A DNA stretch of 64,000 nucleotides from Rhodoferax saidenbachensis (GTDB taxonomy: Bacteria > Pseudomonadota > Gammaproteobacteria > Burkholderiales > Burkholderiaceae_C), in assembly GCF_001955715.1 (NCBI RefSeq), contig NZ_CP019239.1, forward strand, positions 3,658,001-3,722,000, read 5' to 3'. Below are positions 48,130-61,958 of this stretch, one piece after another. The position numbers and the translations under genes are program-made. Within the stretch, counting starts at the first letter, position 1. Each line of letters starts with the position of its first letter. The notes under the pieces are model-generated. The model searched no databases. It worked only from the letters and a program-made list of their open reading frames with translations, and was not told the DNA's origin.

Positions 48130-49950
48130 TCATTTCCCGGCAGCTAATCGGCTCTCGAATGTCAAGGCCGCCAATAACTCCCGCTCAGGATCTGCAACGC
48201 TTCGCGCATATTGCGCGCAGAACGCTTGGACCGCGTGCTGGATCTGAGGCTGCAACCACCAGCTCACCACGTCATGCCAAACCGCATTGACATGCCGTGC
48301 CGCAGCCACCGGGTCTTCGAAAAATATACCCGCGTCGGCCAGTACCTTAAACAACGGCCGCGCTTCGGCACGCAACTCCCATTGGCCGGGGTTCCAGAAC
48401 ATCACTGTGGGGATGTTTCTGGCTAGGGTCTCAAGAAATCCGGTTGAATTGTAGGTATAGACGAACAGCCTGCTGCTCTGCAGCCTTTGCTCGATGGGCG
48501 TCACGCTGGGGTCGACCTCTACTTTGGGAAAAGTCGCTCGCCATTGCGGCACATATGCACTGCGCAGCTTTTCATCAGTACGCTGATGGATACGCAACAC
48601 GAGTTGCTTTCGGGCGGGCGCATCCAGAGCCTCGGCAAAAGCCAGTTGATCGGATAGGAATGCCTGGGACTGATTGGCGGCCACCGGCCAACTACTGTTC
48701 TTGAAACTCACCATGCGAATGGGCACAGTGACAAGCAACAGATCCCCATCGGGCTTGCCTACGCCTTGTTTGCGGTCCAAATTGGTCAGCGCGAACAGCG
48801 GATAAATGCTGGGCCGTGCGTCCCGCCAACCCCAGGTGAGAAAGCGGTCCGAAATTTCCACCTGATGGTCCTCCCCCGCAACTACTTCACCGACCCCATA
48901 AAAGCCACCATGCTGGCCAATCACCAGCGGAACGCCTTCTTGGGTACGCGCTGCGGCCCAGGCCTGGAACACCTCGTCGAACTGGAAAGAGTTGGACGTG
49001 AAGATGACCCTGGGCCGCTTTGGCCACGGCAGGCAGCGCAGCACCTCCATCAAGGCTGGGTAGCCTTCCAGGTAAACCGTCGGTATCTGAAGCGGGATCA
49101 TCTTCCTCAGGAAAACGCGGAACGGATCATCCGTCACATTCTCAGCCGGCAGCTCGAAAACGCCTCGAAGGGCCATGTCGGGAGCGACCTGGGGCGGCGG
49201 GGGCGAGCGCCAGAACTTGGGGATCTGCCCGAGCTTCAACTGGAGCCGCGCCGAAAAGGACCTTGGCAGGCCCGTATTCAGGAAAAACGCTTCCCCGGGA
49301 AGCACCAGCCTGTCAAGAAAGGCCCTGATCGCCTTGCGCAGTGTTTCCCCCGCGCCGACCGGTGCGTCCGCCGTGGCGCTGGTCTGCATCAGTCCGCGGC
49401 TTTCACCGGCCACCTCCTCCCACGTCAGGCACCCCTGCTCACGGATCGCACAGGCATAGAGAAAATGGTTCCAACCCAAATCGTCCGGGCTCATACCCCG
49501 CAGGTCACGGGGAATCAATTCATCTCCCGGGTCGTTGATAAGGAGTGTCGAATCCACATCGTCGCGCTCCGCAGCTTTCGCAACCATGGTCCAGCGATCA
49601 AAAAGTACGTGGGTAAACAGGTATAGCCAAGGGCCCAACAAGATGCGCCAGTACCTCAGACCGTGCTGCGTTCCATGGTGCGCATTGAGCGCCGTCGCAA
49701 GGTTGGCCAAAGCCGCTTCATAGCAGGCCTGCAGGTAAGCATAGTCTGCGCGAAACTTGTCGCGATCGTCCCAGTGGTAGGGAATCACCTCTGCGTCCAG
49801 CCCTTCCCAGCGTTCACGCTCGTCGGGCAAGCGGCACCAGTTGCCGATGAAAAGGAGGGGCTGATCACGGCGCCAGGAGCGCTGGTCCGATGTCGTCACC
49901 AGCAATCGGCGCTTCGTCGCGGCCATAGGCCGGCTCTCGTTACCCTCCAT
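48130..49950 (-). CDS. LIC12162-family putative transferase
   Basis: A 606-residue protein resembling the LIC12162 (TIGR04331) family: LLVTTSDQRSW, PLLFIGNWCRL, the W/Y-rich core (YWRILLGPWLYLFTHVLFDRW) and the C-terminal STGFLETLARNIPTVMFWNPG, which looks like a GT-B nucleotide-sugar site. Such proteins accompany nonulosonic-acid genes and are proposed glycosyltransferases, without proof. The ATG at 49950 lies one base after the LeuA-like stop; an ATG at 49926 is possible. It is the last gene of the nonulosonate block. Confidence 0.72.
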   Translation of the reverse strand: MEGNESRPMAATKRRLLVTTSDQRSWRRDQPLLFIGNWCRLPDERERWEGLDAEVIPYHWDDRDKFRADYAYLQACYEAALANLATALNAHHGTQHGLRYWRILLGPWLYLFTHVLFDRWTMVAKAAERDDVDSTLLINDPGDELIPRDLRGMSPDDLGWNHFLYACAIREQGCLTWEEVAGESRGLMQTSATADAPVGAGETLRKAIRAFLDRLVLPGEAFFLNTGLPRSFSARLQLKLGQIPKFWRSPPPPQVAPDMALRGVFELPAENVTDDPFRVFLRKMIPLQIPTVYLEGYPALMEVLRCLPWPKRPRVIFTSNSFQFDEVFQAWAAARTQEGVPLVIGQHGGFYGVGEVVAGEDHQVEISDRFLTWGWRDARPSIYPLFALTNLDRKQGVGKPDGDLLLVTVPIRMVSFKNSSWPVAANQSQAFLSDQLAFAEALDAPARKQLVLRIHQRTDEKLRSAYVPQWRATFPKVEVDPSVTPIEQRLQSSRLFVYTYNSTGFLETLARNIPTVMFWNPGQWELRAEARPLFKVLADAGIFFEDPVAAARHVNAVWHDVVSWWLQPQIQHAVQAFCAQYARSVADPERELLAALTFESRLAAGK

Positions 49951-49951
49951 G

Positions 49952-51109
49952 TCAGCTGCGTGCCGCAAGCTGAGCGACCATGGCCCTGAGCTCTTCGTCG
50001 CCAAGGATGGCTGAATCGGTCAGGCGGCCCTTGATCTGCGCAAAAAGCTGGTCCAATTTCCGCTCCTCCAAGGACATGCCCAGCGCAGCGATGCGCGCCG
50101 CCACCCCCTTGCGGCCGGAATGCCGCGTGATCGGCAACTGCCGCGCAGGAGCGCCAACCCGTTCGGGCTGGATGATTTCGTAGGTACTGGCCGCCTTGAG
50201 TATCCCGTCCTGATGCAGGCCGGCCCCGTGGGCAAACGCATTGCCGCCGACGATGGCCTTGTTCGGCGCGATCGAGAACCCCGTCGCTTCTGCGACCAGC
50301 CGGCTGGCCGGCCAGAGTCGCGTCGTATCGACGCGGTTGGAAAACGGGTAGCGGTCCGGCCGCACGGCCATGGCCATGACAATTTCTTCCAGGGCAGCGT
50401 TGCCCGCCCGCTCTCCCAGGCCGTTGATGGTGCAATGCGCCTGCCGCGCCCCCGCCTCAAGGCCGGTCAGCGTGTTGATGGTCGCGAGGCCCAAGTCGTC
50501 GTGACAATGGATGCCAAGCAAGATACCGCCCAGCTCGGGCACTTCACTCTGCAGCGTTTCAAGGTAGTGGCGAATGTCCGGTGGTGTGGAGTAGCCCACT
50601 GTGTCGGCCACCGTCAGCACGCTCGCTCCACTCTGAACCACTGTCCTGGCCACTTTGCACAAAAAATCAAGGTCCGCCCGCGATGCATCTTCGGCAATGA
50701 CTTCAACCTCTGCGCAAACATGGCGCGCCGCATTAATGCATTCCACCAGCATCTCAAGCGCGGCCCCCGCCTCCATGCCCAGCTTGCACCGGATGTGCAG
50801 ATCGCTAACCGGCATGACCAGAGCGATCCGTGGGTGTGCCGCCCAGCGCAAAGACTCACCGGCCACGGCGATGTCATCGAGCTTGGTTCGCGCGAATGCG
50901 GCGATCCTGACTTCGCGGCATTGGCGCGCAATATCGGCCAGCGCACGTGCGTCTTCCGGCGATGCCGCCGGAAATCCGGCCTCTATGGTGTCTACGCCGA
51001 GACGCTGCAAGGCCTCGGCAATAGCCAGCTTCTGCGCGGGCAGCATGGCAGCCCCGGGCGCCTGCTCGCCGTCCCTTAGTGTGGTGTCGTAGATCTGTAC
51101 CGGGATCAT
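49952..51109 (-). CDS. LeuA/NifV-like acyl-CoA:2-oxoacid condensing enzyme
   Basis: A 385-residue DRE-TIM metallolyase. DTTLRDGEQAPG (residues 8-19) carries the metal-binding Asp and the base Arg; GIHCHDDLGLA has the His-x-His metal pair; NGLGERAGNAALEE follows. HQDGILKAASTYEII matches isopropylmalate synthase. It should join acetyl-CoA to a 2-oxo acid to give a 2-alkyl malate. It ends at about residue 385, without the LeuA regulatory domain, so it is not under leucine feedback. It overlaps the ATP-grasp gene by four bases, in a sugar cluster rather than an amino-acid operon. Confidence 0.85.
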   Translation of the reverse strand: MIPVQIYDTTLRDGEQAPGAAMLPAQKLAIAEALQRLGVDTIEAGFPAASPEDARALADIARQCREVRIAAFARTKLDDIAVAGESLRWAAHPRIALVMPVSDLHIRCKLGMEAGAALEMLVECINAARHVCAEVEVIAEDASRADLDFLCKVARTVVQSGASVLTVADTVGYSTPPDIRHYLETLQSEVPELGGILLGIHCHDDLGLATINTLTGLEAGARQAHCTINGLGERAGNAALEEIVMAMAVRPDRYPFSNRVDTTRLWPASRLVAEATGFSIAPNKAIVGGNAFAHGAGLHQDGILKAASTYEIIQPERVGAPARQLPITRHSGRKGVAARIAALGMSLEERKLDQLFAQIKGRLTDSAILGDEELRAMVAQLAARS

Positions 51110-52161
51110 GAAAGGTCGGCGGCTTTCACCATCAGAATGGCCCTGGGCGCCATGCCCACATCGATGTCCCGTACAGGTGCCTTTAGCGGGTAAGGCGTGC
51201 CCAGCGTTTCCGCGATGGCCGAGGCCATGATCGGAAACCCGGCCATATGGGCGGCCACAACGCTACCGCTGGGCCTCGGGTTGACCTCAAGCAAGCACGG
51301 TCTGCCCTGATCATCCGTCATCAAATCAATATCGTGGAGCGCATCAAGGCCCAGTGCCTCGGCGATTTCGAGGCAATACTTCATGATTACCGGATCGGAG
51401 ACGATCCGATTGCCAGTAAACGGAATTCCTGCAGGGTTGAAGCGGCGGCGAACCAGCGCCGCCTGCGCCTTACCGCGGATCGCAAACACATCCACGTCAT
51501 GAACCGGGGCGTGGAGCAGAGGCATTACCATCAGGGCTCCATCTTCAAACCACTTACTCATTTCTTCCGGCGTAGCATGGTTTGCCTCGCGCTTTTCGCG
51601 TGCGCCGCCACCAATCCAGGCCGCAGGCGCTTCGTCGGAACCGACCAAAACGCGCATGCCGCGCCCGCCCCGGCCCGCCACCGGTTTGACAATCACGCTG
51701 CGGCGCGGATAACCGAAACCGGAGATGGCAGAGCGCAGATCGTCCACGCTGGCCACACAGACATGCTCGGGCACCCGCAGCCCGGCAACCTGCAGCGCAC
51801 GATATGTGGCCTGCTTGTCGCGAATCAAATCAAGTACCGCGACCGGACTCGCCAACACCACCGCGCCCGCTGCTGCAATCTTTTCACGACCGGCAGCCAA
51901 GCTGAAGGCCTCGGGGTCGGAGCCCGGCAGTACCAGATTCACCTTTTCGGCCGCAACGATGCGTGCCACCTCATCAACGTAAGTGGCATCCTCACCCCAG
52001 GGCACCTGGTAGAAAGCATCCACATAAGCCCGCCCTGCCGCGTTGGGGGAGGCGTCCACCCCCACCAGATACGGTTTGAGTACCGGGTCACCACGCAAAT
52101 GCGTCAACAAGTCCGGCGACATCGTTCCGCCCACGCAGGTCAGGAGGACGCGGGCCGTCAT
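51106..52161 (-). CDS. ATP-grasp domain ligase
   Basis: A 351-residue protein with a CarB-like preATP domain (LPGSDPEAFSLA), an ATP-grasp core SVIVKPVAGRGGRGMRVL and the Mg/ATP motif LEVNPRPSGSV near residue 295. ATP-grasp enzymes activate a carboxylate as acyl phosphate and join it to an amine or thiol. Located between a condensing enzyme that makes a hydroxy-acid and PseI, it could ligate that acid to an amino sugar. It overlaps both neighbours by four bases (ATGA). Confidence 0.85.
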   Translation of the reverse strand: MTARVLLTCVGGTMSPDLLTHLRGDPVLKPYLVGVDASPNAAGRAYVDAFYQVPWGEDATYVDEVARIVAAEKVNLVLPGSDPEAFSLAAGREKIAAAGAVVLASPVAVLDLIRDKQATYRALQVAGLRVPEHVCVASVDDLRSAISGFGYPRRSVIVKPVAGRGGRGMRVLVGSDEAPAAWIGGGAREKREANHATPEEMSKWFEDGALMVMPLLHAPVHDVDVFAIRGKAQAALVRRRFNPAGIPFTGNRIVSDPVIMKYCLEIAEALGLDALHDIDLMTDDQGRPCLLEVNPRPSGSVVAAHMAGFPIMASAIAETLGTPYPLKAPVRDIDVGMAPRAILMVKAADLS

Positions 52162-53222
52162 GCCAGGTTCACCACGTCGCCGGCGCTAATCGGCTGGTCA
52201 AGCGCGATGGCAACCCGGGCGGTTTTTCCGAGTACCGATTCGTAACTCGACGGCGGCAGGCCGGCTGCCCCAGGCAGTGGCCGCTTCAGCCCCACATTGG
52301 CTGCGGAGAACACATCTCCGGCGGCAATCGGCTCGCGAGCGATGAGGCAGCGGTGACGTTGTGCGCGGACCGCCTCCTCGGCCGGCGCCGGCACGATCCG
52401 GCCGTCCCCGAGCATCACGGAAAGCCGGCGAATCCCGGCGACCATCTGGCTGAACCCGCCCGGCTCCATGGAAATAAAGTGATCGGCCCCGGCAAGGTGC
52501 TTGTCGAGCGTGAAGTGCTTTTCGATCACGGTAGCGCCAAGTGCGACCGCAGACAGACAGGCCAGGTCATCGAGCGTGTGGTCTGAGTAGCCGACGGGTA
52601 TGCCAAACCGCTGCGCCATCGCCTGCATGCCATTGAGGTTGATGGTCTCGTCAGGCGCCGGGTAAAGCGCCGTGCATTTGAGAACCGCAACGCCAGGCGA
52701 ACCATGCTGCTGGGCGGTCGTGATCGCAAGCGCGATTTCCTCTTCATAGGCCAACCCGGTCGAAATAATCATGGGCAGGCCGCGGCGCGCTGCCTCGGCA
52801 ATCAGCGGCTGGTTGGTCATGAGGCCGGACGAAACCTTGACGGCCGGCATGCCAAGACGGCACATCCGGTCCAGGCTGGCAAAGTCACCGGGCGTTGAAA
52901 ACAGGATGATTCCAAGCCGGTCTGCCAGGGCCATCATCTGCTGCATTGCCGCATCGTCGAGCGACTTGTCGCGAAACTCGGCATGCGAAACAGTGCCAGC
53001 AACATAACTCTCTTCTGCATCGACGGTCTGCAATTTGACGGCATCCGCACCCGACGCGGCTGCCGCCTCGATCATGCGTGCACAGAGTGCTACATCACCA
53101 TGGTGGTTGACCCCCACCTCGGCAATGACAAAGACGGGCTGCCCGGGTCCGATGAGGCGATTGCCAATAGCGAAAGAGGTCGCTGCCCCTGCCGTTTGGC
53201 CACGGGTCGATGTTGATTTCAT
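52158..53222 (-). CDS. pseI: Pseudaminic/legionaminic acid synthase (NeuB family)
   Basis: A 354-residue NeuB-family enzyme: VIAEVGVNHHGDVALCARMI near residue 32, AVKLQT, and IEKHFTLDKHLAGADH with Lys/His at the phosphoenolpyruvate and metal site. The C-terminal SAF (antifreeze-like) domain begins near residue 290. It condenses a 2,4-diacylamino hexose with PEP to the nonulosonate. With PseB, PseC and PseG present the pseudaminate version is most likely, but legionaminate synthase would look similar. The ATG at 53222 is in good context; the stop overlaps the ATP-grasp start. Confidence 0.87.
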   Translation of the reverse strand: MKSTSTRGQTAGAATSFAIGNRLIGPGQPVFVIAEVGVNHHGDVALCARMIEAAAASGADAVKLQTVDAEESYVAGTVSHAEFRDKSLDDAAMQQMMALADRLGIILFSTPGDFASLDRMCRLGMPAVKVSSGLMTNQPLIAEAARRGLPMIISTGLAYEEEIALAITTAQQHGSPGVAVLKCTALYPAPDETINLNGMQAMAQRFGIPVGYSDHTLDDLACLSAVALGATVIEKHFTLDKHLAGADHFISMEPGGFSQMVAGIRRLSVMLGDGRIVPAPAEEAVRAQRHRCLIAREPIAAGDVFSAANVGLKRPLPGAAGLPPSSYESVLGKTARVAIALDQPISAGDVVNLA

Positions 53223-53262
53223 ATTGCTGGTTTCCGAAGTAGACTGGATCCGGGATCCAGCC

Positions 53263-53943
53263 CTAGATTATTGCCCGGCCGAGCTCGAACGCCTCGGCAG
53301 CAGCCACGCCAACCGAGGCGCCGCGCCAGCCCGCCAGATGCGTCACGGCCTCGGCGGAGCGAGGGTGGGGAAAGGCGCGCATCTCGCCGCCGTAGGCTCC
53401 AAGAGCGGCCAGCTTCTGCGGCAGGTAGTCGGAGACATCCACGAACCAGTCCGGCGCAAACGGGGGAAACGACGCGGCAGGCCGCCACTCCGTGCTGGAA
53501 GGCGTTTCAAAAAACAGCAGTTGCCGCACACAAAAGTCCGGCAGGGGCCGGCAGGCTGCCACGACGGCGTCATGGACGCGGCGATGGTCAATATTGACGT
53601 CGCCGGCATGGTGCGTGTACACGATGTCGGGCTGGCATGTGCGAATGATTTTCTCGATGTCCTGCACGATATCGAGCAAGGCGACCTGGTCCATGCGGTT
53701 GTCGGGATAAGCCAACAAGCTCAGGTCGGTCACGCCGAGTTCGCCGCACGCGTGGCGCGCAGCCGCCTGGCGGGCGGCAAGCTCTCGGGCGCGGTCAACG
53801 GGGTCGCGGGCTCCGACGCCGTCGGCCAGCAGCAACACGGTCACACGCGCCCCCTCGGCACGGTGGCGGGCCATGGTGGCCCCACAGCCTAGCACCTCAT
53901 CGTCTGGGTGAGCCGCTACCACCAACACACTATTAACAACCAT
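53263..53943 (-). CDS. PIG-L/LmbE-family N-acetyl sugar deacetylase
   Basis: A 226-residue zinc deacetylase: AAHPDDEVLGCG at residues 11-22 holds the Asp/His metal ligands, and THHAGDVNIDHRRVHDA has the last His ligand. The family removes N-acetyl groups from GlcNAc-type substrates. It is directly upstream of PseI and shares the strand; the gap is 40 bases. It could expose a sugar amine for re-acylation. AAGG precedes the ATG at 53943; a longer frame start at 54087 lies in the repeat-bearing gap. Confidence 0.87.
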   Translation of the reverse strand: MVVNSVLVVAAHPDDEVLGCGATMARHRAEGARVTVLLLADGVGARDPVDRARELAARQAAARHACGELGVTDLSLLAYPDNRMDQVALLDIVQDIEKIIRTCQPDIVYTHHAGDVNIDHRRVHDAVVAACRPLPDFCVRQLLFFETPSSTEWRPAASFPPFAPDWFVDVSDYLPQKLAALGAYGGEMRAFPHPRSAEAVTHLAGWRGASVGVAAAEAFELGRAII

Positions 53944-54388
53944 CGAATAACCTTTTGAAGTGAAGCACCCGCCCTTGCACGGTGGCGGCCGGTCGTCGGC
54001 CATCTCCGCAGGGACGCCGTGCTCTCGCAATCTTACCGCCGGTGTCAGCCTAGGCACGATAACTCGGCCTCGTGAGTCCAGGGCCATCCAGACGGACCGC
54101 GGGACTGTTTACAGTTGAACGTGCAACGCGCCCCTGAGGGCGCAGTGGCCGCTACTCGCTATTCACTTGATAGCAGCTGACGCTCGCTGATATTGGACGG
54201 ATAGCCTATTTGATACACAAGATGAGGGAGAAACCAGTCACTTCCTGCTTGCTCCCGCCCGTATCACATCGCGGGACCAATTCCCGCAGCGCCAAGCAGC
54301 TAAAAATTTCATAGCATTTTGAACCGGAAGCACCCTGTTGCGCTTGGCCAAGCTGGTTTCGGCTGAAATAGGCTTGCTGGTAGCAAGC
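53944..54388. other. 445-base intergenic region with degenerate R2 repeats
   Basis: No gene is supported. Two R2-like pieces are visible: GATAGCAGCTGACGCTCGC at 54162-54180 and CAGCTAAAAATTTCATAGCA at 54296-54315, both degenerate. The 61-residue frame at 54238-54423 runs into PseG and has no family look. The promoter of the PIG-L-to-LIC12162 block is probably in this gap. Confidence 0.6.
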
Positions 54389-55909
54389 TCATACGGTTTG
54401 CCGGTAACAGGCAACCCCGTCACTCACGTCTGGGGACTCCGAAGCCTGGAAGCCTAGCGATTCAAACACTTTTCTTGACGGAACGTTGTCGACTTTGACC
54501 TGTCCGAATACCGATGCGCCCGGCGCATCGGCACGCAAGCGCATAAGGGCTGTGTTGAGCAGCCGACGGCCCAAGCCATATCCCCTGAATTCAGGAGCGA
54601 TGCTGTAGTCTATTTCCCATCCTATGTCTCCACACTCGAAACGAACCTGCCCGAGTGCCACGCCGTCCGCAGTCTCGACGATGTAAAGCCTGACGCTCGC
54701 CAGGTCCCCAAGTTTCTGCCGGAGCCAGCGCGCGTGGCCATCCGCCGGGATGGGTGCAGAAGAAAAGGCATTGCTGCGCGTCGTGGGGTCATTGGCCCAT
54801 TCAAGCAAGAGCTTTTCGTCTTCCAAAGTGGCGAGGCGCGCTTGCATCACAGTTTCCGGCATCAGGGTGAGAGCTGTTACAACTCGGCTCACGCCGCGAC
54901 CGTCCACCAGGGCCATGCAGCGCAGCGACCATTCCTGCGGAAGTCCCTGCCGGATCAAGCGGTCCAGCGCCCCGGTGATCATCGACTGATCGACTTCGTC
55001 ATGATGGCCGAGCAGCTGGATGAGCCCAAGACGATGCAGTTCTTCGCTGATGGGGCGCTGGTTGTCGGCGAGCGTCACGACCAGACAAGGCAGGCCCAGG
55101 CACAATCGCTCCCAATGGGTGGAACCGCCGGCGCCGATCGCGAGGTCAGCCCGGGACATCAACGTGGCCAGGCTAGGCAGGCCCGCATGCACACGGATGT
55201 GGGCGTGTGCTTCGGCCTTCTGCCGAACGGCATCGCCATGCCGGCTGCTCGCTCCAATCACGATGTCCACTTCGATATCCGGTCGCCCCAGGGCAAGAAA
55301 GGCGTCCAGCGCCCGCTCCGTGAGGTTGGCGCTGTCGGCGCCGCCGAAAAAAACCAGGGTGCGGCGAACGGCACCCCGGCGTGGCGCCACATGCGCATGC
55401 AGCCTGGCGTAATCGGGGTGCAGCAGGGCGTAGGTCGGACCGATCAACTGGCGGCAGGATGCGGGCAGCTTGTCCGCGTAGCGCTCGTGCATGTCTGCCA
55501 CCAGGTTCTGGTCAAGCAACAAATCGCAGTCGTGGGGCCGGTTGCACAGGTCATCGATCACCATCAGGCGATCGGCTGAAGCACGGAGTTCGCCTTCCCA
55601 TCGCCGGTCCAGAAGGTAGTGATCGACAATCAGCCAGTTTGCTTTCCGGCCCAAGCCAACCTCAAGGGCAGCGCGCGTCTCTCTGGCATCGTCGACCCAG
55701 TTGCCAGTTGCAAGACCGGGAACGGGGGCGAGCAACTGGACCGCAAAGCCACGCTCAGTGATCAGATAGCCAAGATGGCCAGGTTGCTCACGGCAAATAA
55801 AAAGTACGTCAGCACCCCGCGCCTTCAAGGATTGCGCCAGCGTAAGGCAACGCATGACGTGGCCCGAACCGACCTGCGATCCGCCATCGGTACGAAAGAC
55901 CACCCACAC
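54389..55909 (-). CDS. pseG: PseG UDP-sugar hydrolase fused to GNAT acetyltransferase (PseG-PseH type)
   Basis: A 506-residue fusion. Residues 1-325 are PseG: FRTDGGSQVGSGHVMRCLTL with the catalytic His in GSGH, and LVFFGGADSANLTERALDAF. It releases UDP from UDP-2,4-diacetamido-2,4,6-trideoxy-altropyranose. Residues 340-506 are a GNAT domain: RLATLEDEKLLLEWANDPTT, IGWEIDYSIAPEFRGYGLG (acetyl-CoA loop) and VKVDNVPSRKVFESLGF, in the PseH position for 4-N-acetylation. Separate genes encode these steps in Campylobacter and Helicobacter. The start is GTG at 55909. Confidence 0.88.
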   Translation of the reverse strand: MWVVFRTDGGSQVGSGHVMRCLTLAQSLKARGADVLFICREQPGHLGYLITERGFAVQLLAPVPGLATGNWVDDARETRAALEVGLGRKANWLIVDHYLLDRRWEGELRASADRLMVIDDLCNRPHDCDLLLDQNLVADMHERYADKLPASCRQLIGPTYALLHPDYARLHAHVAPRRGAVRRTLVFFGGADSANLTERALDAFLALGRPDIEVDIVIGASSRHGDAVRQKAEAHAHIRVHAGLPSLATLMSRADLAIGAGGSTHWERLCLGLPCLVVTLADNQRPISEELHRLGLIQLLGHHDEVDQSMITGALDRLIRQGLPQEWSLRCMALVDGRGVSRVVTALTLMPETVMQARLATLEDEKLLLEWANDPTTRSNAFSSAPIPADGHARWLRQKLGDLASVRLYIVETADGVALGQVRFECGDIGWEIDYSIAPEFRGYGLGRRLLNTALMRLRADAPGASVFGQVKVDNVPSRKVFESLGFQASESPDVSDGVACYRQTV

Positions 55910-55912
55910 CGC

Positions 55913-57985
55913 TCAGCGTACCTTGAACAGCGGCGCGAGCGGCTCGCACTCCAGCAGGGTCCGCAGCGTGCCCTCGGAAACCGCGCGTGCAATCATGCCA
56001 AAGACTTCGCGGTAACAGGCCAGCAACTGGTCGATGTCGGCATCGCTGTGCGCGTAGCTGAGGTTGTGTGTGCCGAGTGTGTAAACGCCGCGCTTGAATA
56101 CTTCCTGGATGAACAGCGTCTTGATTTCCACCGCGGAGACTCCTGCGGCAGCCTTGAAGGCCAGAAAACTCCACGAAGGGTGGCCGCTGATGCCGATAAC
56201 ATGCGCCATATCCAGGTCCGCAATCAGCTGGTTGACCCCGTCGATGACTTTCTGTCCGCGCAGCTTCAGGGTTTCCAGAACCGGTTCACGCTTGAGTTTG
56301 TGAAGAACGGCCTTGGCGGCCGCGAGCGACAAAGTCTCGCCGCCGAATGTGCCGGAAAAGAAAATGTCTTCCACGACCGTCATGTACTCGGCCTGGCCGA
56401 CCAGGGCCGACAGCGGATAGCCGTTGGCAATGCCTTTGCCGAAGGTGGCCAGATCGGGTGTGACCCCGAACTCCTGTTGCGCTCCGCCTATCGTGTAGCG
56501 AAAACCTGTGATGGTTTCGTCAAAAACCAGCAAGGCCCCGTGCTGGTGTGCGGCAGTCTGCACCTTCTCAAGAAACCCATCCTTGGGCCAGGTCGAATTC
56601 ATCGGCTCAAGGATAACGGCGGCAAACTCGTCTGGATGCGCATCGAGGAGGCGCTGCAATGATGCAATGTCGTTATAGGCAAAGGTCTGGGTCAGCTCCT
56701 TGACGGCCAGCGGCACCCCAAGGTCCCGCGCCGTACTGCCGATGTACCAGTCCTGCCAGCCATGGTAGCCACAGACGGCCACGCGGTTGCGGCCCGTATA
56801 AGCCCGCGCCACACGAATGGCACCTGAGGTGGCGTCGGTGCCATTCTTTGCGAAGCGGACCTGCTCGGCGCAGGGGATCAACTCCACCAGCAACTCCGCG
56901 ACTTCTGCCTCGAGCCGATGTGGCAAGGAAAACGTCACACCGCTGTCCATCTGCTGGCGCACGGCTACGTCCACATCGGGGTCGCAATAGCCGAGCGTCA
57001 CACAGCAAAGTGCACTGACGAAGTCAACGTACTCATTGCCGTCGATGTCCCACATGCGGCTGCCTTTGGCGCGATCAACAAAATACGGCGACACCCCGAA
57101 AGGCAAGGCTGTTTTGCTTTTACTGAATGTTTGCGAACCCAGCGGAATGACCTTCAAGGCACGGTCTAGGAAAGCTTCGGAGTTTTTGTAGCGTTCAGTC
57201 ATTGGGTATTTTTCTAGAAACTGTTTGTCTGCGGCCAGGGATTTTTTGCTTCCCTCATTGCGCTCGAACCGCGTATTGATCTGCATCAGCGCCGGCTCCG
57301 CAGCCAGCAGCGCCAACACGTCGCGGGTGGAGAAAGCAGGATTTCTCGGGTACAGCCGCTCATAAACCTGCTTCACAAACTCGAAATCTTCGGGCTCATC
57401 GACCGTCCAGCGCATGCCGGAACGGTCTGTTTCACCGGACACATGGTTGCCGACCCGAAAGCGATCGGACTGCCTCCGGATGAACGGGGTCACATGCTCG
57501 CGATGCGACGGCAGCACCGCCTCGCGCCACGATGCTTCAAGTGCTGCAAAACGGGCCACCTCCACGTCCAGTCCATCGGGGTAGCTCGCCGGCTCGCAAT
57601 TGGACAGGTAATCCAGGTCACTCGCGACAAAACGCGTGACGATTTCATCGATCAACGCCCAATCGGCAAGCGGGCAATCCCCCGTCAAGCGCACGACGAT
57701 ATCAGGGGCATATGGTCGTGCGGCGCAGACGAAGCGGTCAAGGACATCGGTAAGGCTTCCGCGGAAACAGTCCACGCCCTCACGCGCGCACAGCTCGGCA
57801 AGGGCGTCGTCGGAAGGGTCGGTGCTGGTCGCTACCACCATGGCACTGAAGGTCGTGCAACGCTTCAGGCGCTCGAGCTGCAATGCCAGCATAGGCCTGC
57901 CGATTATCGGCATCAATACCTTGTTGGGCAGGCGCGTAGACGAGGTACGCGCCTGAAGGATAGCCAGGATCCGCTGCGCCATCAT
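55913..57985 (-). CDS. Cytidylyltransferase fused to class-III aminotransferase
   Basis: A 690-residue fusion. Residues 1-245 are a SpsF/PseF-like cytidylyltransferase: LAILQARTSSTRLPNKVL, TGDCPLADW and WTVDEPEDFEFVK. From residue 262 (ATG at 57202 could start it alone) it is a class-III PLP aminotransferase like glutamate-1-semialdehyde aminomutase: RFAKNGTDATSGAIRVARAYTG, LVFDETITGFR and the Schiff-base Lys in FGKGIANGYPLSALVG. The first half can activate the nonulosonate to its CMP form; the second half's substrate is unknown. The gene follows PseC/AKR in the cluster and precedes PseG. Confidence 0.86.
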   Translation of the reverse strand: MMAQRILAILQARTSSTRLPNKVLMPIIGRPMLALQLERLKRCTTFSAMVVATSTDPSDDALAELCAREGVDCFRGSLTDVLDRFVCAARPYAPDIVVRLTGDCPLADWALIDEIVTRFVASDLDYLSNCEPASYPDGLDVEVARFAALEASWREAVLPSHREHVTPFIRRQSDRFRVGNHVSGETDRSGMRWTVDEPEDFEFVKQVYERLYPRNPAFSTRDVLALLAAEPALMQINTRFERNEGSKKSLAADKQFLEKYPMTERYKNSEAFLDRALKVIPLGSQTFSKSKTALPFGVSPYFVDRAKGSRMWDIDGNEYVDFVSALCCVTLGYCDPDVDVAVRQQMDSGVTFSLPHRLEAEVAELLVELIPCAEQVRFAKNGTDATSGAIRVARAYTGRNRVAVCGYHGWQDWYIGSTARDLGVPLAVKELTQTFAYNDIASLQRLLDAHPDEFAAVILEPMNSTWPKDGFLEKVQTAAHQHGALLVFDETITGFRYTIGGAQQEFGVTPDLATFGKGIANGYPLSALVGQAEYMTVVEDIFFSGTFGGETLSLAAAKAVLHKLKREPVLETLKLRGQKVIDGVNQLIADLDMAHVIGISGHPSWSFLAFKAAAGVSAVEIKTLFIQEVFKRGVYTLGTHNLSYAHSDADIDQLLACYREVFGMIARAVSEGTLRTLLECEPLAPLFKVR

Positions 57986-58214: not shown

Positions 58215-58757
58215 TTAAGAACTCAAATTGATGTCGTAGCCCATAATCAAATTCGAGTCAGATTTATTTATGTATTGGCTATCGATGGGTTTAAAACCAG
58301 CTTTTTCATAACTCCGAATCGCAGAAATATTCGTTTTATCGACACCCAGCTCAAATCTGGTGATGCTTTTATTTTCGTACAACCAGTGTGCCGATGCTTC
58401 GAAAACTTCCGAAAAAACACCTCGTCCGCGCCATTGTGCATCACCGATCAAAACGCCCATTACTGCGTATTTTTTTTCAACCTGAACAGGTTCATATTTT
58501 ATATTTCCAATATGCCTGCTGGTTGTCTTATCGAAAATCCCCAAAAAACATACGTCCGGTCTACCAATACGCATTCGAACATAGCTTTTTAATTGAGCAA
58601 GGCTTTCTGTATTTTTAGACGCTGAAATATATATTTTTGTAGTTGGCTCAGTTAGCCAACCAAGATACTCAAGTGTGACGTCATCTTCAGTTAGCGGGCG
58701 AAGAAAAAATCTTTTGGATTCAATCTTCTCTTTTGAAAAATCGAGATTTTTAATCAT
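58215..58757 (-). CDS. GNAT-family N-acetyltransferase, AT-rich, possible PseH
   Basis: A 180-residue RimJ/RimL-type GNAT: FFLRPLTEDDVTLEYLGWL near residue 17, a substrate strand with TRHIGNIKYEPV, the acetyl-CoA loop GDAQWRGRGVFSEVFEA and VDKTNISAIRSYEKAGF. This layout matches PseH, which acetylates UDP-4-amino-4,6-dideoxy-AltNAc. A second GNAT is fused to PseG, so this one may acylate another position. Its codon and base composition is much more AT-rich than the neighbours, which suggests recent acquisition. Confidence 0.82.
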   Translation of the reverse strand: MIKNLDFSKEKIESKRFFLRPLTEDDVTLEYLGWLTEPTTKIYISASKNTESLAQLKSYVRMRIGRPDVCFLGIFDKTTSRHIGNIKYEPVQVEKKYAVMGVLIGDAQWRGRGVFSEVFEASAHWLYENKSITRFELGVDKTNISAIRSYEKAGFKPIDSQYINKSDSNLIMGYDINLSS

Positions 58758-58891: not shown

Positions 58892-59790
58892 CTACTTCCA
58901 ACGCGATGGGTTAATGACTGCTTCGTCGTGAATGGCAAATCGGCCCAGGCTGCGCAGGCTCTCCGGCGAGACGGTTGCTTGCGCCGCCTCAAGTATGCCT
59001 TCCCATTGCTCCGGCTGTTCACACCCGACGATCACCTTGTCGATGTCCGGACACGCGAGGCAGAACCCCAGAGCCGCCTGCAAGGGCGACAGGCCCGACG
59101 CTTCATGTTGAGCCCAGAGCGCGGCATGGTGCTCCCGCACCCCTGCAAAGTGCGGAGGAAGGCGGGCCGGTTCGCTGAGCAGTATGCCCTGGAGAAAGGC
59201 GCTACGCACATGCACCTCGACGCCGCTGCTCCTGGTGCGAGCGGCCATCCCGCTGGTGACGTAACGCTGGTCGTAAATATTGTAGGGAAGCTGCACCAGT
59301 TCCAGCGCATACCGCTGCTCGAGCAGGAAAAACTGCTGCGGGTCGTACAGGGAACAACCTATTTTTTCCACCAGCCCTTGCGACCTGAGCTTTTGCATCA
59401 GAACCCACAAGGCATCGCCCGAGGGTCCGAGAAGATCGTCGGCATGGTGCACCAGCAAACCGTAGGCGGCCCAACCCCGGAGCCTGGCGAGGGAATCGTG
59501 GAATGCCTCCTCCACCAGCTTCGCGGACTCGGCAGGCGACAGGTCCAGCCCTTTCAAAGGGCGGGTCTTGGTGACAATGGAAAAACCGTTGGCAAGCGCG
59601 CCCTGCTCACCGAGAACGCGCTCAGCATCGCCGTAGGTCCAAGCGGTGTCCAGCAGGCCCACGCCGGTCTGCCGGGCACGCGCCAGCAGCTTGACGACGG
59701 TTTCCGGCGTCGCCATTCCGCTGCGGTTGGTGATGCCATAGGGCATGCCCCACTGGACGGTTCCCAGCCCCAGCCGCTGCGCCCCCCCGG

Positions 59791-59794
<4 letters not shown>
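58892..59794 (-). CDS. Aldo/keto reductase
   Basis: A 300-residue NADPH-type reductase: GLGTVQWGMPYGI opening, tetrad residues Asp and Tyr in LLDTAWTYGDAE, Lys in VTKTRPLKG and His in LLVHHADD. It reduces a carbonyl, here probably a keto sugar or a nonulosonate-related aldehyde. Such reductases are often seen beside pseBC in proteobacterial clusters without a proven role. The ATG at 59794 overlaps the PseC stop (ATGA). Confidence 0.88.

Positions 59795-61958
<2,164 letters not shown>

Follow-up and report, generated by a model that had tools for sequence, protein, structure and literature searches.

What does a homologue of the 2-isopropylmalate synthase (IPMS) LeuA do beside a nonulosonate synthase? 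The question arises from a 64,000-nucleotide stretch of the Rhodoferax saidenbachensis genome (hereafter the window; positions 3658001–3722000 of one 4.26 Mb single-contig genome), in which four open frames, all on the minus strand, encode a PIG-L/LmbE de-N-acetylase, a NeuB-family synthase, an ATP-grasp ligase and a LeuA-like condensing enzyme. The initial annotation of this DNA had read the four genes as a set that equips a nonulosonic acid with an unusual N-acyl group. Our analysis indicates that the set probably makes an unusual organic acid, by means of a leucine-synthesis type of enzyme with a rebuilt substrate pocket, and couples the acid to a surface sugar resembling sialic acid. The genes are as follows:

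49952..51109, minus strand: LeuA-like condensing enzyme of a pocket-switched clade, 385 amino acids (HMGL-like, 261.6 bits; HCS_D2, 81.1 bits)
51106..52161, minus strand: ATP-grasp ligase, predicted carboxylate-amine ligase (ATPgrasp_Ter, 65.6 bits; PylC-like_N, 35.1)
52158..53222, minus strand: NeuB-family nonulosonate synthase with SAF domain, no PseI equivalog (PF03102, 231.4 bits; PF08666, 47.8 bits)
53263..53943, minus strand: PIG-L/LmbE de-N-acetylase (PF02585, 104.7 bits against a cut-off of 28.2 bits)

The synthase and ATP-grasp frames share four bases (52158–52161), as do the ATP-grasp and LeuA-like frames (51106–51109), and the PIG-L gene ends 40 bases upstream of the synthase gene; coordinates and domains thus agreed with the arrangement that had been described.

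A conserved and rare three-gene core

Linkage in metagenomes was assessed by a proxy in which homologues on equally long contigs were taken to lie on the same contig. The lists comprised 57 LeuA-like, 110 ATP-grasp and 120 NeuB rows; the LeuA and NeuB lists contained the best matches only, and the 57 linkage rows were the top 58 LeuA rows minus one without a stated contig size. Coinciding contigs numbered at least 30 for the LeuA-like and ATP-grasp proteins, at least 25 for the LeuA-like and NeuB proteins and at least 29 for the ATP-grasp and NeuB proteins, and all three coincided on at least 20, which bears out the earlier linking of the LeuA-like enzyme with the ligase and the synthase. Ordinary LeuA rows, which served as the control for the proxy, showed zero coincidence: among the best 120 LeuA rows (5 of them without a contig size), 37 of the 62 proteins with the switched pocket described below shared a contig with the ATP-grasp or NeuB lists, compared with 0 of the 58 ordinary ones (Fisher's p 1e-14, with related rows and an ATP-grasp list drawn with the window's own protein). 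Because the rows are related, we count this result as one clade-level association.

The NeuB, ATP-grasp and LeuA-like genes also recurred in a Polaromonas metagenome-assembled genome (MAG), together with an LIC12162-family transferase gene and an adenosine 5'-phosphosulfate (APS) kinase gene, at 89–96% identity (92% for the ATP-grasp protein, a value that makes kinship of the host with the Polaromonas group probable). Since the arrangement recurs in this MAG and the core recurs, by the contig-length proxy, on many metagenome contigs, it is beyond chance, and the three genes are a conserved, rare module. The rarity was apparent from genome searches with the ATP-grasp protein (threshold E 1e-30 or 1e-40; overlapping samples), which matched 1 of 399 family and 1 of 398 phylum genomes (the genome itself), 4 of 399 order genomes (the genome itself and three without other module genes) and 2 of 274 class genomes (the genome itself and L029). 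Among 87 genomes of the genus to which the Polaromonas MAG belongs, the MAG alone was matched. The three order-level loci (L014–L016) were rejected as instances of the module, as no NeuB, LeuA-like or PIG-L match lay within 17–20 kb. A plasmid search returned 72 records, all below 60% identity and the 20 listed matches at 25–29%, and a search of viral contigs gave no match.

The gene series probably runs on past the LeuA-like gene into an LIC12162-family gene (48130..49950, minus strand; TIGR04331, 461 bits against a cut-off of 225), because an in-frame ATG of the latter lies one base past the LeuA-like stop. The transferase was found in 1 of 150 family genomes (the genome itself) and adjoins the module in the Polaromonas MAG too; it is a candidate nonulosonate transferase.

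The LeuA-like enzyme and its ATP-grasp partner

The catalytic residues placed the LeuA-like protein among the HMGL-like condensing enzymes (the LeuA/homocitrate synthase/CimA superfamily): H204, H206 and N240 were retained in 57/57 clade members, and R15 and D16 in all 54 that reach that far, residues that we take to be the catalytic and metal-binding ones of these enzymes. The protein stayed below the cut-offs for 2-isopropylmalate synthase (TIGR00973, 417.3 versus 598.7 bits; NF002086, 460.7 versus 532 bits). The labels homocitrate synthase (TIGR02660, 314.8 versus 462.9 bits) and citramalate synthase CimA (TIGR00977, 190.7 versus 450 bits) were rejected, as these NCBIfam cut-offs were missed as well. 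Only the HMGL-like and HCS_D2 domains were detected, with no C-terminal LeuA regulatory domain, and some ordinary-type matches also lacked that domain.

In the enzyme NmIPMS, residues L75, H99, S141, N169 and P171 are described as lining the 2-oxo acid pocket (PMC8490860). All five positions were altered in every one of the 57 clade members (the top 58 LeuA rows minus one partial): L75 was replaced by Phe, S141 by Ile, N169 by Thr and P171 by Ala in 57/57, and the H99 position held Thr, Ala, Ser, Asn or Ile in 57/57, never His. The 120 best LeuA matches comprised 62 proteins with the switched pocket and 58 with the ordinary one. In a tree of 77 rows, from which one partial row and the majority of the ordinary LeuA rows were left out, the 61 switched rows formed one side of a branch with support 99/90; four more distant switched proteins fell on the same branch, two of them on a contig equally long as that of an ATP-grasp match. 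A separate LeuA-type frame in the genome, 519 amino acids long and 43% identical, carries the ordinary pocket residues L, H, S, N and P, so the earlier idea that the LeuA-like protein stands apart from the leucine enzyme was upheld.

Judged by its residues, with Ile and Phe for Ser and Leu, the pocket is narrower and more hydrophobic. Because two of its positions carry bulkier, more hydrophobic residues, it points to a small 2-oxo acid as the substrate, and not to ketoisovalerate or 2-oxoglutarate; the last is further disfavoured because Phe72 of the LeuA-like protein replaces a His of one homocitrate synthase that presumably faces the distal carboxylate. Citramalate synthase has a bulky residue at the same Ser position, and pyruvate or a similar small acid would therefore be our first guess. 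A comparable change is described for the plant methylthioalkylmalate synthases (MAM), IPMS relatives without the regulatory domain in which the same five pocket positions are changed for another 2-oxo acid (PMC8490860). As described there, S to G and P to G changes open the MAM pocket, whereas the window's clade, compared here by its pocket residues, has S to I and P to A.

The partner protein has an ATP-grasp fold, with a model at pLDDT (predicted local distance difference test) 95. Its fold neighbours include the L-amino acid ligases YwfE and BacD and also PylC, and it is predicted to be a carboxylate-amine ligase.

The synthase and the pse-type front cassette

The NeuB and SAF domains assign the synthase to the NeuB family, and K53, Q55, H236, D247 and R314 (Nm numbering), which we take to be catalytic, were kept in 98/98 aligned proteins. 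The initial annotation had named it PseI, a label that we withdraw, as the protein scored 247 bits against the NCBIfam PseI equivalog (cut-off 340.25); it also lay below the equivalog for the N-acetylneuraminate synthase NnaB (297.4 bits, cut-off 399.65). A loop insertion near R314 that might have signalled a new N-acyl pocket was dropped from consideration, being frequent in other NeuB rows too. Upstream of the PIG-L gene lies a front cassette of the pse type:

54389..55909, minus strand: PseG fused to a GNAT domain
55913..57985, minus strand: cytidylyltransferase fused to a class-III aminotransferase
58892..59794, minus strand: aldo/keto reductase (AKR)
59791..60948, minus strand: PseC aminotransferase (543 bits against a cut-off of 423.5)
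60945..61946, minus strand: PseB-like dehydratase (Polysacc_synt_2, 358.6 bits)

PseC and PseG exceeded their NCBIfam cut-offs, and the fused cytidylyltransferase was weakly PseF-like (28.5 versus 205.7 bits). The window thus shares PseC, PseG and a PseB-like dehydratase with the pseudaminic acid pathway (PseB, PseC, PseH, PseG, PseI, PseF), and differs from it in a synthase that is not PseI, in the cytidylyltransferase-aminotransferase fusion and in the additional ATP-grasp, LeuA-like and PIG-L genes. The genome has only one further NeuB match, at a distance of about 16 kb, in which NeuB is joined to a xylose-isomerase-like TIM barrel; it reached neither the PseI nor the NeuB cut-off. Because both of the genome's NeuB-family proteins miss these cut-offs, we infer that the pse-type front end probably supplies the unusual synthase.

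Matches to the cytidylyltransferase-aminotransferase protein were found in 6 of 200 family genomes, the genome itself and five relatives. All five relatives, picked by this very match, contained PseC, AKR, cytidylyltransferase, aminotransferase and PseG in the same order (interrupted by about 3 kb in L023), and PseB was found in three of them. The class-III aminotransferase was accordingly rejected as a part of the module, since it adjoins PseC, AKR and PseG in 5/5 relatives. A NeuB-family gene 34–37% identical to the window synthase then follows in four relatives, and the fifth contig stops earlier. No ATP-grasp, LeuA-like or PIG-L match was present in the five; only three contigs (L025, L026 and L027) continue past the synthase, so the tail is tested by these three only. 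They encode a canonical PseI (489–501 bits), and the interval between PseG and PseI holds a formyltransferase-type gene in two of them (one below the NCBIfam cut-offs, the other above its Pfam cut-off) and PseH in one. Because the relatives carry such genes there, the slot between PseG and PseI seems to serve N-acylation, in keeping with the N-acyl reading of the initial annotation.

Proposed function, alternatives and related loci

The explanation we favour, with a probability of about 0.55, is that a dedicated condensing enzyme makes a hydroxy-acid that the ATP-grasp protein joins to an amine of a nonulosonate or its precursor. We infer the acid, the acceptor, the role of PIG-L and the order of steps as follows. 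The front cassette (PseB-like dehydratase, PseC, AKR, cytidylyltransferase-aminotransferase and PseG) would yield a diamino-trideoxy sugar, and in the tail the canonical PseI would be swapped for a plug-in module of divergent NeuB-family synthase, ATP-grasp ligase and LeuA-like enzyme. From acetyl-CoA and a 2-oxo acid, not 2-ketoisovalerate but, as the candidate, pyruvate or a different small acid, the LeuA-like enzyme would form a 2-hydroxy-2-alkylsuccinate, for instance an acid of the citramalate type. The ligase would turn this acid into an acyl phosphate and link it as an amide to a free amine of either the sugar or the nonulosonate; at this locus, PIG-L would expose that amine. The synthase would add phosphoenolpyruvate, the cytidylyltransferase domain would then activate the product, and a transferase, for which the LIC12162-family protein is the candidate, would place it into the surface polysaccharide.

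Several observations weigh against this explanation. The fold neighbours of the ATP-grasp protein are chiefly biotin carboxylases, so that the fold assigns no function and does not favour amide formation in particular, and ordinary acetylation could be done by the GNAT domain on PseG and the free GNAT gene of the cassette. If the acid were merely an N-acyl group, the synthase's travelling with the acid genes is unexplained. In the core-bearing Polaromonas MAG, neither PIG-L nor PseG was matched, in searches without a positive control that did not cover contigs below 3 kb, and an AT3-SGNH acyltransferase gene lies upstream of NeuB there, on the opposite strand and near the contig end. Because PseG was unmatched, a different source of sugar may also serve the core. 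The initial annotation is supported in part, for the distinct LeuA-like enzyme, for its linkage and, as seen in three relatives, for an N-acyl slot; the PseI label does not stand, and PIG-L is at most a tentative member of the conserved core.

The same acid might be made and ligated as proposed, on another polysaccharide residue or as an ester. In favour of this version, glycosyltransferases, methyltransferases and a sulfotransferase mark the surroundings as a large polysaccharide cluster; we nevertheless find it doubtful, as the acid genes are linked to a NeuB-family synthase across diverged contigs. Homologation of an amino acid, in which the LeuA-like product would pass through the cell's LeuCD and LeuB to a longer 2-oxo acid and then through transamination, and the ligase would attach the resulting unusual amino acid, draws on the closeness of the ATP-grasp fold to YwfE and BacD and on the class-III aminotransferase domain in the locus. 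Yet no LeuB, LeuC or LeuD homologue occurred among 20 Pfam-scanned locus proteins, and the aminotransferase, shared by the five relatives chosen by matching it, is not module-specific, which makes this route unlikely.

LeuA-type enzymes accept 2-oxo acids, which lends some plausibility to a chain extension in which the LeuA-like enzyme adds acetyl-CoA to the keto group of the synthase product, giving an 11-carbon dicarboxylic sugar acid from which the ligase makes an amide or lactam. Such a reaction would account for the three genes travelling together and for the divergent synthase subfamily, and if true the amidated product would be a new class of surface sugar. We regard it as improbable: the bulky hydrophobic S to I and L to F changes in 57/57 fit a polyhydroxylated nine-carbon substrate poorly, and the cytidylyltransferase domain, which would need the anomeric keto carbon, is kept. 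The best NCBIfam matches of the LeuA-like protein are 2-isopropylmalate synthases, as they would be for an ordinary leucine biosynthesis gene lying in the cluster by chance. That reading was rejected, since the scores are below the curated cut-offs and the genome has another LeuA-type gene with the ordinary pocket; the pocket replaced in 57/57, the separate clade and the pocket switch that tracks ATP-grasp/NeuB linkage likewise make a role in leucine synthesis very unlikely.

The joining of a dedicated hydroxy-acid to a nonulosonate amine would belong to custom N-acylation of nonulosonates, a kind of modification already known. To our knowledge, the nearest described case, with an apparently similar logic, is sfmABCDE of Shewanella oneidensis. 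These genes are reported to be needed for normal flagellin modification, in which a further moiety is carried by a likely mono-N-acetyl nonulosonate, and to encode a thiamine pyrophosphate-dependent IlvB-annotated enzyme, a reductase, an S-adenosylmethionine (SAM) methyltransferase and an ATP-grasp-domain protein suggested to be a carboxylate-amine ligase (PMC3765264). Both systems would pair an acid-forming enzyme with an ATP-grasp protein, the two ATP-grasp proteins being set side by side by description only. Unlike the window, sfm has an IlvB-type enzyme in place of a LeuA-like one and a SAM methyltransferase, and its five genes as described include neither NeuB nor PIG-L (PMC3765264). The open-licence literature, covered mostly at the level of titles and abstract beginnings, showed no nonulosonate cluster with a LeuA-type enzyme.

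PIG-L, only weakly tied to the module, is the weakest part of the proposal. The protein belongs to the PIG-L/LmbE family by its Pfam score, with the motifs AHPDDE and THHAGDVNIDHRRVH, whose roles we take from general knowledge of the family, intact. The tie gains support from the class-level genome L029, because a distant ATP-grasp relative there (27% over 299 residues) overlaps the end of a PIG-L gene. At L029:1677–5890, genes for a 3'-phosphoadenosine 5'-phosphosulfate (PAPS) reductase, ComA (phosphosulfolactate synthase family), a histidine phosphatase, PIG-L and the distant ATP-grasp protein lie in a row, and this glycan locus also holds an asparagine-synthase gene near the last two; no NeuB-family or LeuA-like match occurred across 18 kb. 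It resembles the window in combining an acid-forming enzyme family with PIG-L and an ATP-grasp relative and differs in that ComA is unrelated to the LeuA-like enzyme. The locus is possibly a second acid-plus-ligase module, for a sulfolactyl-sugar with sulfolactate as the likely acid; sulfolactate, ATP-grasp and polysaccharide were not found together in the open-licence literature.

Surface nonulosonates influence how phages, hosts and grazers recognise bacteria; their N-acyl groups are highly diverse, the origin of the unusual acids being often unknown. In the window, an enzyme of primary metabolism appears to have been re-tooled as a supplier of acid for a glycan and retained next to a dedicated ligase. 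Taken with the IlvB-type case as described for Shewanella and the ComA locus, this suggests a general plan of acid synthase plus ATP-grasp ligase that can be searched for.

The second NeuB locus (L003:5175–13978, genome 3721174–3729977) lies mostly beyond the window; its neighbours comprise a phosphoheptose isomerase, a heptose-kinase-like protein, nucleotidyltransferases, an IlvE-like aminotransferase and two short-chain dehydrogenases/reductases, and it is possibly a route to another ulosonic acid. An alternative earlier start of PIG-L is possible at 54087. Between the PseG-GNAT gene and the shorter PIG-L start lies a gap of 445 bases (53944–54388), in contrast to the tight spacing downstream, which may be a promoter site or the joint of the front cassette with the tail module. 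Three 227-amino-acid open reading frames elsewhere in the window were unrelated. The free GNAT gene (58215–58757), in the interval between the AKR and cytidylyltransferase-aminotransferase genes, has a GC content of 37.6% against 58.4% for the window and looks like a recent insertion.

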